In this document: positions 29,056-33,009 of the stretch, in pieces
Numbering within the stretch: the first letter of the stretch is position 1
Layout of the letters: every line of letters starts with the position of its first letter
Source: Pectobacterium peruviense
GTDB taxonomy: Bacteria; Pseudomonadota; Gammaproteobacteria; Enterobacterales; Enterobacteriaceae
Length of the DNA stretch: 64,000 nucleotides
Direction: 5' to 3'
Assembly (NCBI RefSeq): GCF_002847345.1
Contig: NZ_LXFV01000059.1
Coordinates: forward strand, 1 to 64,000
Program-made: the position numbers and the translations under genes
The notes under the pieces: model-generated
Told to the model about the DNA's origin: nothing
What the model saw: only the letters and a program-made list of their open reading frames with translations
The model's database searches: none

Positions 29056-29859
29056 ATGAAAAGCGTGATTGCAGCGGCGGCCATGTCGCTTGTTCTTTCT
29101 GATTTTGCTAACGCTGAGGAAAAAAGAGGTGAAGCTATGATGAAAGTTGAACCTTCAGCCCTTTCGGAAGCTGATATCCGTTCTGTCTCACCGGCACTGG
29201 CGCGCTTTAGCCGTGAAGCTATTACTGAAGATCTCTGGATACGCGATACCCTCTCGCCTCGGGAGCGTAGTATGGTGACCGTCGCCATACTAATTGCTCG
29301 AAACCAGACTGGCGAGCTGAAGCACTATTTAGAAGTTGCCCTCAATAGTGGCGTTACGCCAGCAGAATTATCAGAGATCATTACTCATTTGGCGTTCTAT
29401 ACCGGATGGCCGAATGCAATGGCAGCCGTCAGCGTTACCAAAGCGGTTTTTGAGGCTCGTGGCGTCAGGGCAGACGCACTTCCTGAAGCCTCTCCAGCAC
29501 TGCTTCCTCTTAATCAAGAGGCAGAAAAGCAGCGCTCAGAAACGGTGGAAAAAAATGTGAGTTCCATTTCGCCCGGGCTGGTTAAATTCACCGCTGCTCC
29601 ATTATTCCTGGATCTCTGGCAAAGACCTGCACTTAAGCCCCGCGACAGAAGTCTGATCACGGTCAGCGCGTTAATCGCATCCGGACAGAGCGCACAGATT
29701 GGCTATCACCTTAACAGAGCGATGGATAATGGACTTTCAGCTGAAGAAGCGGGTGAAGTCGTTACCCAGGCGGCGTTCTACGCTGGCTGGCCAAACGCAT
29801 TTACCGCGGTCCCAGTTGTCGGTGAGGTATTACGCAATCGGTCGCCCATCAAAGGGTAA
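29056..29859 (+). CDS. Exported tandem carboxymuconolactone-decarboxylase-family protein
   Basis: A 267-aa protein with a signal peptide (MKSVIAAAAMSLVLSDFANA) and two CMD/AhpD-like domains. The first has LSPRERSMVTVAILIA ... ALNSGVTPAELSEIITHLAFYTGWPNAM; the second has LKPRDRSLITVSALIA ... AMDNGLSAEEAGEVVTQAAFYAGWPNAF. The active-site CxxC of AhpD is absent, so a peroxidase role is unlikely; a lactone or small-molecule role is possible. The start at 29056 is preferred to 29044 because GAGGATTAAC precedes it. Last gene of the LysR-linked train. Confidence 0.83.
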   Translation: MKSVIAAAAMSLVLSDFANAEEKRGEAMMKVEPSALSEADIRSVSPALARFSREAITEDLWIRDTLSPRERSMVTVAILIARNQTGELKHYLEVALNSGVTPAELSEIITHLAFYTGWPNAMAAVSVTKAVFEARGVRADALPEASPALLPLNQEAEKQRSETVEKNVSSISPGLVKFTAAPLFLDLWQRPALKPRDRSLITVSALIASGQSAQIGYHLNRAMDNGLSAEEAGEVVTQAAFYAGWPNAFTAVPVVGEVLRNRSPIKG

Positions 29860-30202
29860 AACCAAGGTATTACACATTAACCTGCCTGCAGATGATTATC
29901 TCTTCGCGATGTCAGCGACATCCGTTTCTGGCACACAGGGGACAAGCACGTAACGCTGAAGGTCTGCTGAGAGCGAAAAGCGGAAGCTCGTAATTCATGC
30001 TTACATTGGGTGTGTCTTAAACAATTGGAATAGTTCACGGCAAATCGCTTGCGTTTTGCCGGGATAAACATTGTACGTCCAGGGGCAATAGTGGTGGTAG
30101 TGCTGATACCCACATCACCAGTTCGGCCGGGTTCTGTCGGCGCTCGGGAGCATTAGGCTAAAGGCCGTATGGAACGAACCTATCAGCACTTCTAGAGGGC
30201 AT
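29860..30202. other. Intergenic region between the CMD gene and the radical SAM gene
   Basis: Contains the left 48-bp repeat and otherwise no gene that I recognise. Short ORFs here have no family features. It forms the 3' boundary of the AT-rich RiPP-like locus. Confidence 0.45.
29928..29975 (+). repeat. 48-bp direct repeat, left copy
   Basis: This stretch matches 32190-32237 in the same orientation and length with 40 of 48 bases identical by eye, including TGGCACA, CACGT and GTCTGC/ATCTGC-GAGAGCG parts. The TGGCACA centre with flanking TCCG/GGAC resembles degenerate palindromic intergenic repeats seen in gammaproteobacteria. The two copies bracket the RiPP-like locus. Confidence 0.7.
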
Positions 30203-31630
30203 TTAGTTCAACAGTTCTTTTTTCATTTTCGTTATATTGCAAAAATATTCATTGACATTCAAATAATCACCATTGCAATCTTCATTTGCGTTTCTTACCA
30301 AGCACATTGAACAAGTACCTTTAATATCACATTGCATGCATTTGGGGAAATCTTTCCTTTTTATCATTCTTAATAAATTTATTTTCCTAGAAAAATGCCA
30401 GACATCATTTAATGATGTTTCCAGGATATTACCTAAAACACAATACTGCCAGCCAGCACAGGGATAAACGTTTCCGTTCTCAGCAATGCAAACAGATACA
30501 CTACAAATCGAACAGATAGGGTCTTCCGGATCAACATGACTCTTATTAATCAGGTCATCTTTCAATCTATCAAGATAAGTTTTATCATTAGAAGATTTAT
30601 CTTTAATAACGTCACTGACTTCATTTAATGAGAGTCGATTACCGATGATTTTATTTGAATGATCATACTCCGCAATCAAAGCATAATCATAACTGACAGC
30701 AATCCCATATTTTTTCGCCCATTCAATGACATCGCGATAACAATTTTTATTCTGTTTCATTACTGGACAACTGATCTGTAGCGGTATATCATTTTCGACT
30801 AACTTAAGTATTGATGATTCGGTTTTTTTAAAACTTCCTGTCATTTTTGTTATTGAATCATGAATGACAGGAACTGTTGAATACAGCGATGTCTGAACTC
30901 CCAACAATCCATTCAGCTTCATCTCAGTCACGACTTCATCAGTCAGGAGCGTGAGATTAGTAAGAACGCTGACGGAAAAATCATACTCCCTGCATTGCTT
31001 TAATATGTCACAAAAATCTTTATGCAACATAGGCTCCCCTCCGCTCAGAGTTATATGTAGCACATTCATATCTTTACATTGTTTCAACAAAGAATAGATA
31101 TTTTCCGTGTCCAGTGTTTTTATTTTTTTCTCATGAGGGATATAACAATGAATGCATCGCTCATTACACTTACTGGTGATTTCTATATGTACGCTGGTCA
31201 AGCGGTTTACTTCGCTTTCATGCTTTTCAAAGAACTCATTTGTATTGTCTGGATTATCCTTACTTATGTCGACTTTTACTTTACTATCTATATCTTTATA
31301 TGTAAAAACATAATCATTGCTGTTACATTCAGCAGCAGTCTCCCCTTTACACAAAAAACCATCACAAACTAACTCAGAGAAAAACTCTTCGACATCATCT
31401 CTTATTATTTCAATGCTGGCATCTTTGAACTTAGCAAGTAGTTCAGTACATATATTAAGAGTAGATTTTGGAGTCTTATTTAAAGTAGATAAAAACACAG
31501 CTCCACTTTCTGAAACAATTCTTTCTCCTATCACCTCATCTTTTACATACCTGTAGTTCCTATCATCCGTAATGTAACCATAATCACCGTAATTCCTGAA
31601 TAGTACATTTGATTTGAGTTTAAAATACAT
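30203..31630 (-). CDS. Radical SAM/SPASM RiPP-type peptide maturase with N-terminal PqqD-like domain
   Basis: A 475-aa putative peptide-modifying enzyme. Residues ~1-100 resemble a PqqD/RRE peptide-recognition domain (LKSNVLFRNYGDYGYITDD start). The radical SAM core has CNERCIHC (Cys155, 159, 162) for the 4Fe-4S/SAM cluster and GGEP at 197-200. The C-terminal SPASM region (residues ~370-465) has Cys373, 376, 381, 391, 397, 431, 434, 440, 443, 452 and 464, enough for two auxiliary clusters. Such enzymes install thioether, C-C or C-O crosslinks on ribosomal peptides. It follows a 38-aa peptide gene, with a hairpin between. No peptidase or exporter is adjacent. The gene is markedly AT-rich, suggesting horizontal transfer. 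Confidence 0.87.
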   Translation of the reverse strand: MYFKLKSNVLFRNYGDYGYITDDRNYRYVKDEVIGERIVSESGAVFLSTLNKTPKSTLNICTELLAKFKDASIEIIRDDVEEFFSELVCDGFLCKGETAAECNSNDYVFTYKDIDSKVKVDISKDNPDNTNEFFEKHESEVNRLTSVHIEITSKCNERCIHCYIPHEKKIKTLDTENIYSLLKQCKDMNVLHITLSGGEPMLHKDFCDILKQCREYDFSVSVLTNLTLLTDEVVTEMKLNGLLGVQTSLYSTVPVIHDSITKMTGSFKKTESSILKLVENDIPLQISCPVMKQNKNCYRDVIEWAKKYGIAVSYDYALIAEYDHSNKIIGNRLSLNEVSDVIKDKSSNDKTYLDRLKDDLINKSHVDPEDPICSICSVSVCIAENGNVYPCAGWQYCVLGNILETSLNDVWHFSRKINLLRMIKRKDFPKCMQCDIKGTCSMCLVRNANEDCNGDYLNVNEYFCNITKMKKELLN

Positions 31631-31660
31631 AAGATTATATTCCGACTGTATATAAATAAA

Positions 31661-31686
31661 GAAGCGACGAAAACTGTCGCCGCTTC
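31661..31686 (-). terminator. Attenuator-like hairpin between the precursor peptide and the maturase gene
   Basis: On the minus strand GAAGCGGCGA-CAGTTT-TCGTCGCTTC forms a 10-bp stem (one G-U pair) with a 6-base loop, directly followed by TTTATTTAT. It lies 21 bases after the precursor stop and ends about 30 bases before the maturase ATG. That is the classical place for a partial terminator that yields more peptide than enzyme. Confidence 0.75.
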
Positions 31687-31707
31687 GCTGTATGTCAGAG
31701 TGTGAAA

Positions 31708-31824
31708 TTAACGATTGCTAGGTCCAGGAGGGTTGCAGGGTCTCCCGCTGGGTTTACTGTTAGGACGGCATTCCGCCTTGTATGCAGAACTTTTCGCTAA
31801 AACTGCCGGTTTTGAATAACTCAT
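31708..31824 (-). CDS. Candidate RiPP precursor peptide (38 aa)
   Basis: A 38-residue ORF starting MSYSKPAVLAKSSAYKAEC and ending in a Pro/Gly/Arg-rich tail (PSGRPCNPPGPSNR). It contains two cysteines (Cys19 and Cys30). The Shine-Dalgarno GAGG lies nine bases before the ATG at 31824; the in-frame ATG at 31839 has none. It has its own promoter (below) and lies immediately upstream of the PqqD/radical SAM/SPASM gene on the same strand. The N-terminal half would be the leader bound by the PqqD-like domain and the tail the modified core. I do not recognise a named RiPP family in it; precursor status is inference from context. Confidence 0.72.
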   Translation of the reverse strand: MSYSKPAVLAKSSAYKAECRPNSKPSGRPCNPPGPSNR

Positions 31825-31855
31825 ACATATTGTCCTCATAAAATGTAAGTCTATT

Positions 31856-31884
31856 ATGTTATTCCCCAGTTTTGTAAGAGTCAA
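31856..31884 (-). promoter_or_regulatory. Sigma-70 promoter for the precursor peptide
   Basis: On the minus strand TTGACT (31879-31884) is followed after exactly 17 bases by TAACAT (31856-31861), which would start RNA ~25 bases before the peptide ATG. The -35 box lies at the edge of an older decayed gene. Confidence 0.55.
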
Positions 31885-31904
31885 CTTGTTGCTGGCATGG
31901 GTTG

Positions 31905-32093
31905 AAACAATGGTCATTAGCAGCCTGTTGCAGGGTAACGACACCTTGAGCCGGGGCGGGGCTAACTTCTCCACAACTGCCGATGGGGGCGTGCTGAGTG
32001 GCGGTGATTGACGCTCGCTGACCAGACAGGGCAGATGCAAAGCCGCAATATGATGGTGACGGTAAACCACTGGCAGAACAGCGGCACGGTGCA
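31905..32093 (+). pseudogene. Filamentous-haemagglutinin/CdiA-like repeat remnant
   Basis: Two short frames on the + strand resemble pieces of haemagglutinin repeats: SSLLQGNDTLSRGGANFSTT-like in the first and QMQSRNMMVTVNHWQNSGTVQV in the second, ending in a stop at about 32093. FHA-type two-partner-secreted proteins contain many N-SG-T-x-Q motifs of this kind. No intact gene remains. Recognition is by motif only and is uncertain. Confidence 0.35.
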
Positions 32094-32138
32094 GGTGTAA
32101 GCATACCCGTATTAGTTCCACACACTTTGAGAATTCCT

Positions 32139-32314
32139 GTGATCTGCTCCCCGCCGGTTGATGTAGATAGATGCTAGGAATGGCTGCTCCTGGCACAAAG
32201 CAGACAAACACGTGACGCAGAAGATCTGCAGAGAGCGGAAGTGCAAAATTGTTCTCTCAGTTGATGGAGAAATTACTAACATTGCAGTGTGTTAATCAAC
32301 GGGGAGCAGGTCAC
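32139..32314. repeat. 176-bp segment with inverted terminal repeats (MITE- or IS-end-like)
   Basis: The left end GTGATCTGCTCCCCGCCGGTTGAT (32139-32162 in two parts) is matched in inverted form by ATCAACGGGGAGCAGGTCAC (32295-32314). The left arm is 24 bases and the right arm 20, one mismatch apart from a 4-base gap. It encloses the right copy of the 48-bp direct repeat and no gene. It may be a relic of a transposable element. Confidence 0.5.
32190..32237 (+). repeat. 48-bp direct repeat, right copy
   Basis: Partner of the repeat at 29928-29975, same orientation and equal length, differing at eight positions by eye. Together they bound a 2.2-kb segment carrying the RiPP-like locus. Confidence 0.7.
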
Positions 32315-32334
32315 GGTTTCCCTTGTTAATATCT

Positions 32335-33009
32335 TCAAGCAGCGAGAATGGCAGAATGCTGACGAAGATGATTTTGGAAAAGTTCTGCATAATCTGATGA
32401 TACCGCGGCTTTTACGCTTTCCCTTTTCGCAAGTGCGGCTTTCCATGCGGAAGTACGCGGAAGTCCCTCAAAAATCGCCTCAGATACTGATGCATCGATG
32501 ATGGAGAAGTAACGAAAAATAGGAGCGTAGACCGCATCAACCATACTGAATTCGGCACCAGAGAAATAAGGCCCTAAGCTCAATTCAGATTCAATACGTT
32601 CAAGCTGCTCACGGAACACCGCGCGTTTGCTGTCTGCAATGACCTGATCAGTCGCATTTAAAAATTGCCATGCATTGCCAAGCATTGATGTAGAGAACTC
32701 GATCCATGCGCGCTGTCTGGCTCTTACTAATGCATCGTCAACATACATCGGATCACCGTCTTGCGTTTCATTAAGGTACTCGCAGATCACCATGCTCTCG
32801 AAAATAATGGCATCTTCGCCGTTTGCCTGACGCACTTTAAGTAGCGGCACCTTGCCGGTGGGTGACAGGGCAAGAAACCAATCAGGCTTCGCCGATAAGT
32901 CTACATTTACGCGTTCAAATGGCACATTTTTTTCGAGAAGAACGATCGCTGAACGCTGTACAAAGGGACATAGTGGGTGGCTAATAAGTGTTAGGTCATG
33001 GGTAGACAT
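32335..33009 (-). CDS. Glutathione S-transferase family protein
   Basis: A 224-aa GST-fold protein. The thioredoxin-like N-terminal half has LISHPLCPFVQRSAIVLLEKNVPFERVNVDL and the cis-Pro motif GKVPLL with ESMVICEYLNE for glutathione binding. The C-terminal half is all-helical. SHPLCPFVQR places a Cys at the active site, as in Omega/Beta-like GSTs, which favours thiol-transfer or dehalogenation over conjugation. It lies 78 bases downstream of an SDR gene on the same strand, so the two may be an operon under the divergent LysR regulator. Confidence 0.88.
   Translation of the reverse strand: MSTHDLTLISHPLCPFVQRSAIVLLEKNVPFERVNVDLSAKPDWFLALSPTGKVPLLKVRQANGEDAIIFESMVICEYLNETQDGDPMYVDDALVRARQRAWIEFSTSMLGNAWQFLNATDQVIADSKRAVFREQLERIESELSLGPYFSGAEFSMVDAVYAPIFRYFSIIDASVSEAIFEGLPRTSAWKAALAKRESVKAAVSSDYAELFQNHLRQHSAILAA

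Follow-up and report, generated by a model that had tools for sequence, protein, structure and literature searches.

A putative two-gene RiPP cassette on mobile DNA, with a near-invariant Cys core and a predicted RRE-radical SAM-SPASM maturase

Introduction

A small locus of Pectobacterium peruviense, found in a stretch of 64,000 nucleotides (contig NZ_LXFV01000059.1; hereafter, the window), raises the question of why one kind of modified peptide should be encoded on DNA as different as plasmids, a phage-like contig and islands with integrases. RiPP families commonly retain the leader of their precursors and vary the core. Here the pattern is reversed: the core is kept over the leader, in a cassette that occurs in different phyla and on plasmids that ordinary Enterobacteriaceae carry. 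We know of no radical SAM RiPP described as a two-gene accessory module moving across phyla, and the chemistry is possibly new and directly testable with the two genes. We consider it probable that the locus is a self-contained RiPP cassette on mobile DNA, in which a radical SAM enzyme guided by a RiPP recognition element (RRE) crosslinks the Cys of the core. The putative precursors are a new family within the radical SAM RiPPs, a known kind, and are unusual for their fixed core and their mobility.

Results

A short precursor, a hairpin and a maturase recur as a unit

The pair lies on the minus strand (30203-31884) and consists of two genes, of 38 and 475 codons, together with a promoter-like site and a hairpin. 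The 38-aa putative precursor, MSYSKPAVLAKSSAYKAECRPNSKPSGRPCNPPGPSNR, is encoded at 31708..31824, the hairpin (GAAGCGGCGA-loop-TCGTCGCTTC, with a T-rich tail) spans 31661..31686, and the gene at 30203..31630 encodes a 475-aa RRE(PqqD-like)-radical SAM-SPASM maturase. These are the elements that an earlier sequence-only reading had proposed; all are present, and a homologous peptide accompanies the maturase in 21 other loci. The promoter-like site TTGACT-17-TAACAT (31856..31884, minus strand; 9/12 matches) is of a kind no more frequent at the locus than in shuffled sequence (8 found for a shuffled mean of 7.2), although its TTGACTC is kept in the four gammaproteobacterial loci aligned (4/4).

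The locus differs from its surroundings in G+C content (33-37% vs about 45-55%) and lies between genes for a carboxymuconolactone decarboxylase and a glutathione S-transferase, the former matching E. coli chromosomes at 85-88% among the matches listed. The DNA of the pair has a single match in its own 4.78-Mb genome, where the maturase is also the sole TIGR04085 match. Short stretches on either side of the locus (29911-30007 and 32260-32315) have numerous scattered matches in genomes of its genus. The segment at 31883-32100 resembles the remnant of a large exoprotein gene; Pfam returned nothing for two fragments of it.

A homologous peptide upstream of a homologous maturase, in the same orientation, was found in 22 loci: the window, L002-L009, L015, L036-L039, L057 (the full contig of L012), L068, L071, L086, L087 and L091-L093. 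The short precursor, the structured hairpin and one RRE-radical SAM-SPASM enzyme recur as a unit, under taxon labels that include Bacteroidota, Spirochaetota, Bacillota and others. One genome scan provided 14 loci with the maturase, plasmid records of Salmonella, E. coli and Photobacterium provided seven, and further loci came from sampled surveys and IMG/VR. The peptide is unlabelled in the (incomplete) feature tables of the seven plasmid records holding it, and three more E. coli plasmid records match it beyond the 22 loci. We found no recognisable precursor upstream of the maturase homologue of L010 (about 47%), and the searches used found none in L066, L074, L075, L076 and L083. The partial or distant loci L067, L077/L085, L082 and L088-L090 were kept outside this tally.

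Among 196 relatives of the window genome, the full-length maturase occurs in its own genome only; 133 of the 196 have matches at 0.001, which apart from its own are to radical SAM genes of other kinds, with a second-best E of 1.6e-16. The class survey gave at least 3 of 369 genomes at 1e-40, its own included, the other two being 36% and 30% identical. In the phylum of L002 the count was 2 of 395 genomes, both of them already known loci, and in the order of L004 it was 5 of 295, of which one was already known and another (L094) has a core of the AGC type. The phylum of L012 gave 3 of 299, and that of L013 gave 17 of 392 at 1e-30. In these surveys, that of the class included, no more than 4-5 candidates were scored in each genome, and the counts are minimum values. 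A protein-level search of phage records gave no match, and in IMG/VR the single protein found none while an alignment found 3 loci. The window DNA has no match among 20,395 records of E. coli complete genomes, and a 3-kb stretch of it gave only a flanking gene among the 15 matches listed. The E. coli plasmid copy matches 619 such records, none covering 80% of the query, and the matched part is the recombinase gene in the best 40 of the 619.

The core of the precursor is more conserved than its leader

We placed the border between leader and core, by choice, at the first Cys. With this predicted border, the precursor of the window comprises a leader, MSYSKPAVLAKSSAYKAE, which carries Y-x-x-P, and a core, CRPNSKPSGRPCNPPGPSNR. 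Invariant in 16 aligned precursors are the leader Tyr, Lys, Pro and two Ala, both Cys, and the run P-x-G-R-P-C-x-P; Cys19 and Cys30 are present in all 16 and in all 17 distinct cores. YxxP occurs in every leader of the 22 loci (19 distinct entries) and YxKP in all except L086 and L087, which stand outside the 16 aligned precursors and retain YxxP without the leader Lys. The core of L087 has a third Cys, and in that of L093 a Gly replaces the second Pro after Cys30. The 17 distinct cores are rich in Pro, Arg and Lys, with 5-6 Pro and 2-6 basic residues each. None contains D, E, F, W, Y or H, and the only aliphatic residue is one Ala in L071. The pN/pS ratio, pooled over pairs of the 16 precursors, is 0.15 for the core and 0.44 for the leader, a comparison that is descriptive only since sequence pairs are not independent. 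As read from these alignments, the core is under stronger constraint than the leader.

The 38-aa precursor matched none of the families of Pfam and NCBIfam, nor did five other precursors match any of NCBIfam. Together with the fact that no paper was found with the strings searched, this agrees with the earlier claim that the tail of the peptide matches no known core. Most subscription papers fell outside the literature covered, and a large mining survey could therefore already contain the family; topic searches gave listings in which it is not named.

The maturase has a predicted recognition domain that fits the leader motif

Pfam profiles match the maturase at residues 40-92 (PqqD, 24.1 bits for a cut-off of 23.4), 149-305 (Radical_SAM) and 373-435 (SPASM). 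The CxxxCxxC motif at 155/159/162 and nine Cys of the SPASM region (373, 376, 381, 391, 431, 434, 440, 443, 464) are invariant in a 16-row alignment. Identity to the window protein is 69-71% in the plasmid copies, 50-54% in L002-L009 and L015, and 41-47% in L011, L013 and L014. Of the 62 NCBIfam families matched, 25 were listed, and the maturase is under the cut-off of all of these, including AlbA, SkfB, StsB and PapB; the best-scoring are heme-pathway enzymes (AhbD, NirJ2). In a sequence search of the PDB, two RiPP maturases of solved structure come nearest, SkfB (best, 2e-12) and SuiB. The full-length model is weak in the catalytic/SPASM region past the N-terminus (mean pLDDT 59.4), and a fold search with it placed SuiB first (4.3e-9) and SkfB eighth.

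The sequence-only reading had likened the N-terminus of the enzyme to a peptide-recognition domain, and residues 1-105 (31316..31630, minus strand) do model as an RRE, which, like the peptide homologues beside related maturases, bears that reading out. Their AF2 model has a pLDDT of 87.8. The top seven rows of a Foldseek search belong to TbiB1, a second lasso B1 and PqqD (TM 0.61-0.68); the best E is 2.1e-3, and none of the PDB matches reaches E 0.001. PMC12710340 lists YxxP as a characterised recognition sequence (of lasso peptides), gives W/Y/LxxP/L/I as common to the FusE, McjB, PqqD and StsC groups, and names HIxxI, not YxxP, as the characterised motif of sactipeptides. The predicted RRE fold and the YxxP motif of the leader agree with each other.

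We mapped the core types on a 32-row maturase tree. The SGRPC core label needs 2 changes for a shuffled mean of 11.0 (0/500 as low), a clustering that is helped by near-copies in a tree where several branches are long and weakly placed. The SGRPC rows form more than one clade, and most rows with divergent cores (Y-x-KP) sit inside the tree, amid SGRPC-type rows. The AGC-type label is unclustered (5 changes for 5.6 in shuffles; 166/500 as low), and rows where no precursor was found are mixed among the AGC-type ones. The tree leaves out L077, L085, L079, L067, L082 and L057 (partial, broken or cut), L038 (a near-copy) and L086-L094. In L076 (180-473) and L083 (180-464), a second match to maturase residues 1-103/106 lies ~1 kb upstream of the full gene and is either a separate recognition domain or a truncated copy. 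In L089, from the phylum of L012, matches to residues 34-112 and 129-474 are about 1.3 kb apart.

A covarying hairpin separates the two genes

The hairpin of the window (31686-31661) has 10 pairs followed by the T-rich tail. It folds with -16.2 kcal/mol (z -4.4), and 0/200 shuffles are as stable; the region 29800-32400 has 4 terminator-like sites vs a shuffled mean of 1.6 (sd 1.4). Across twelve loci, 91.4% of 139 hairpin cells are paired. Four of the 12 pairs are altered on both sides, which 3/500 shuffles reach, and the covariation score is 0.324 vs 0.190 in shuffles (0/500 as high), with the caveat that related sequences can exceed shuffles without structure. Slid versions of the hairpin score at most 0.114 and have at best 64% of cells paired. 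In 18 loci, 95% of cells are paired vs 81.7% with whole arms shuffled (0/2000); this count leans towards structure because the arms were set by hand. With a covariance model (E up to 1), every match in the loci searched falls either in the interval from precursor to maturase or immediately upstream of the maturase. Its matches are weak in L068 and L069, and it finds no hairpin in L071 and L087, though both keep a stem. The counts leave out L009 (which has a different hairpin), L037 and L038 (near-copies of L036) and L086 (weaker model match). An Rfam search gave 6 matches, none over gathering.

A T-tail after the stem (at least 5 T in 8) occurs in 8 of the 18 loci (the window, L036, L039, L003, L005, L008, L057 and L087), and we rejected the hairpin as a general terminator on this count. 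The earlier reading took it as an attenuator that keeps precursor in excess over enzyme. The stem is conserved and covaries and has its T-tail in the window, as in all gammaproteobacterial loci counted (3/3), but the tail is found in 5 of the 15 other loci. The hairpin may hold the yield of enzyme under that of precursor, as a terminator-like stem in the window and, where the T-tail is absent, by mRNA processing or stabilisation. In L003 (541-910) and L086 (3735-3940), extra DNA with strong hairpins follows the precursor, ahead of the conserved hairpin, and may be one small insertion common to both.

The cassette resides in diverse mobile settings

Except in the near-identical plasmid copies, the long stretches of DNA that loci share lie within the cassette. 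The DNA of L002 is 72-82% identical to contigs assigned to other phyla (L003, L006, L009 and L057, the last also with a 76% piece) and 78-85% to Bacteroidota-type contigs (L004, L005, L007, L008, L015). These matches stop no more than about 170 bases ahead of the precursor on one side and 60 bases past the maturase on the other; L004 and L008 additionally share an integrase stretch. The taxon of L003, L005, L006, L007, L010 and L012 may be a binning error because these are MAG contigs of 3.3-6.5 kb; the contigs that hold L002, L004, L008, L009 and L015 measure 41-358 kb.

On IncF plasmids and a Photobacterium plasmid, the cassette has a resolvase-type recombinase gene upstream, annotated in L037-L039 and present as an open frame in L036. 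In the IMG/VR contig L086 (3600-7800), it adjoins holin and Rz-like spanin genes and looks like phage cargo. Three integrases accompany L087, and one L004. The L057 contig (1-5520) has an exact 162-base terminal repeat, which makes it probably a circular molecule of about 5.36 kb; it also carries a DUF4917/SIR2-like gene matching PADLOC PDC-S21 (E 1.2e-107). In all, PADLOC matched 5 of 10 neighbours from five loci, one per locus, the ten having been chosen by eye and the rate being given without a control set: an OLD/GajA-like ATPase (L007), PDC-S21 (L057), PDC-S05/RhuM (L004), a methyltransferase (L008) and a weak DRT-HEPN (L015). Annotated features and ORFs from 110 aa upwards were examined, and in these no gene for an exporter, a protease or immunity recurs; small immunity genes are missed at this size limit; part of the flanking ORFs were scanned against profiles.

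Discussion

Likely chemistry and comparison with known systems

In the cassette as we picture it, the N-terminal RRE would bind the leader via Tyr3-x-x-Pro6 (YxxP), and the radical SAM/SPASM domains would abstract hydrogen from core residues. The enzyme most likely installs Cys-based thioethers, by which Cys19 and/or Cys30 would be joined to Gly, Ser, Asn, Lys or Arg positions. The product would be compact, cationic and Pro-rich, without aromatic or acidic side chains. Trimming would fall to host proteases, since we saw no dedicated gene for a protease, an exporter or immunity that recurs. The near-unchanging core suggests a fixed job for the product, and its constancy from phylum to phylum makes a single conserved target probable. 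The least certain step is the last, in which the product would benefit the mobile element by competition or defence.

Cyclophane/triceptide, darobactin, Xye, streptide, PQQ and mycofactocin systems have an aromatic residue in the modified part. We rejected these families because the 17 cores lack F, W, Y and H; both aromatic and Cys-Asp/Glu crosslinks within the core are excluded because the cores lack aromatic and acidic residues. SuiB, the top fold match of the full-length model, makes streptide, in which Lys is joined to Trp, whereas no Trp occurs in our cores. Ranthipeptide systems (SCIFF/CteB, PapB) share with ours the Cys donors and a SPASM maturase. The SCIFF core, however, has six Cys vs two here (three in L087). 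PapB-type enzymes are reported to use Cys with an Asp/Glu acceptor, whereas 0/17 of our cores have D or E and the maturase scores 58.6 of the 340 bits required for PapB. Sactipeptide systems (SkfB, AlbA, StsB) resemble ours in combining radical SAM and SPASM domains with a leader-plus-Cys precursor. They differ in that our maturase reaches only 64.1 of 300 for SkfB, 63.2 of 850 for AlbA and 69 of 625 for StsB (NCBIfam), and in that our cores are nearly devoid of hydrophobic residues. According to the review PMC8326336, sactipeptide acceptors include Lys, Arg, Ser, Asn and Gly, all of which occur in the cores. The likeness to lasso B1 and PqqD elements extends to the RRE fold (TM up to 0.68 for TbiB1 and 0.63 for PqqD) and the YxxP motif, but here the RRE is fused to a radical SAM enzyme.

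Alternative explanations

The invariant positions include Pro, Gly and Arg besides Cys, which would also suit an enzyme that modifies the peptide without thioethers, by C-alpha epimerisation or by oxidation or C-C bonds at Pro, Arg or Lys, the Cys serving as disulfide or metal ligands. Such an enzyme would be in line with scores below all listed thioether-maturase cut-offs and with the single Cys in the short peptide of L014. The invariance of Cys19 and Cys30 in 16/16 aligned precursors and the retention of at least one Cys after the leader in each divergent-core precursor printed make us regard it as rather unlikely. It is very improbable that the short ORF, followed as it is by a terminator-like hairpin, is a regulatory leader peptide for the enzyme instead of its substrate. 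We reject this because selection acts on the core: the C-terminal half of the peptide is under purifying selection at the protein level. The predicted RRE with its matching leader motif, the clustering of the SGRPC label on the maturase tree and the 10 of 18 loci without a T-tail by our scan rule also argue against it.

Many bacteriocins are plasmid-borne, and in composition the polar cores, rich in Pro and Arg, are similar to Pro-rich peptides that target the ribosome. These points, like the presence of the cassette on plasmids and beside phage lysis genes, fit a conventional secreted bacteriocin served by chromosomal exporter and protease functions. We hold it somewhat unlikely, given that no exporter, protease or immunity gene recurs in the features and ORFs examined and that the core is constrained more than the leader, not diversified. 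In our judgement it is unlikely that the element carries a defence or exclusion factor, with the modified peptide acting inside the cell against phage or incoming DNA. The holin and Rz-like genes beside L086, the three integrases of L087 and the PADLOC matches of half the chosen neighbours, one in each of five loci, speak for it; against it, these neighbours were picked by eye without a control set, islands collect defence genes generally, and the defence-like genes differ between loci. Co-location alone would not separate bacteriocin from defence because lanthipeptide clusters are reported near defence genes in PMC12715929. Equally doubtful, to us, is a broader formulation in which the cassette is mobile cargo encoding a near-invariant, fully polar, crosslinked peptide that acts inside the cell and is not a diversifying secreted bacteriocin; its targets could be, for example, the ribosome or the replication machinery, as phage defence or element exclusion.

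Related precursors with other cores

Among the systems closest to the cassette are Y-x-KP peptides with the same leader pattern and different Cys cores, the maturases of L011, L013 and L014 being 41-47% identical to that of the window. These homologues come mostly from the phylum of L013 (Treponema). YxKP-like leaders joined to cores such as AAGCPA...CxxCERT and MMPC... were seen beside related maturases in L011, L013, L069, L070, L072, L073, L078, L079, L081, L084 and L094. Two copies of such precursors are present in L073 and in L079.
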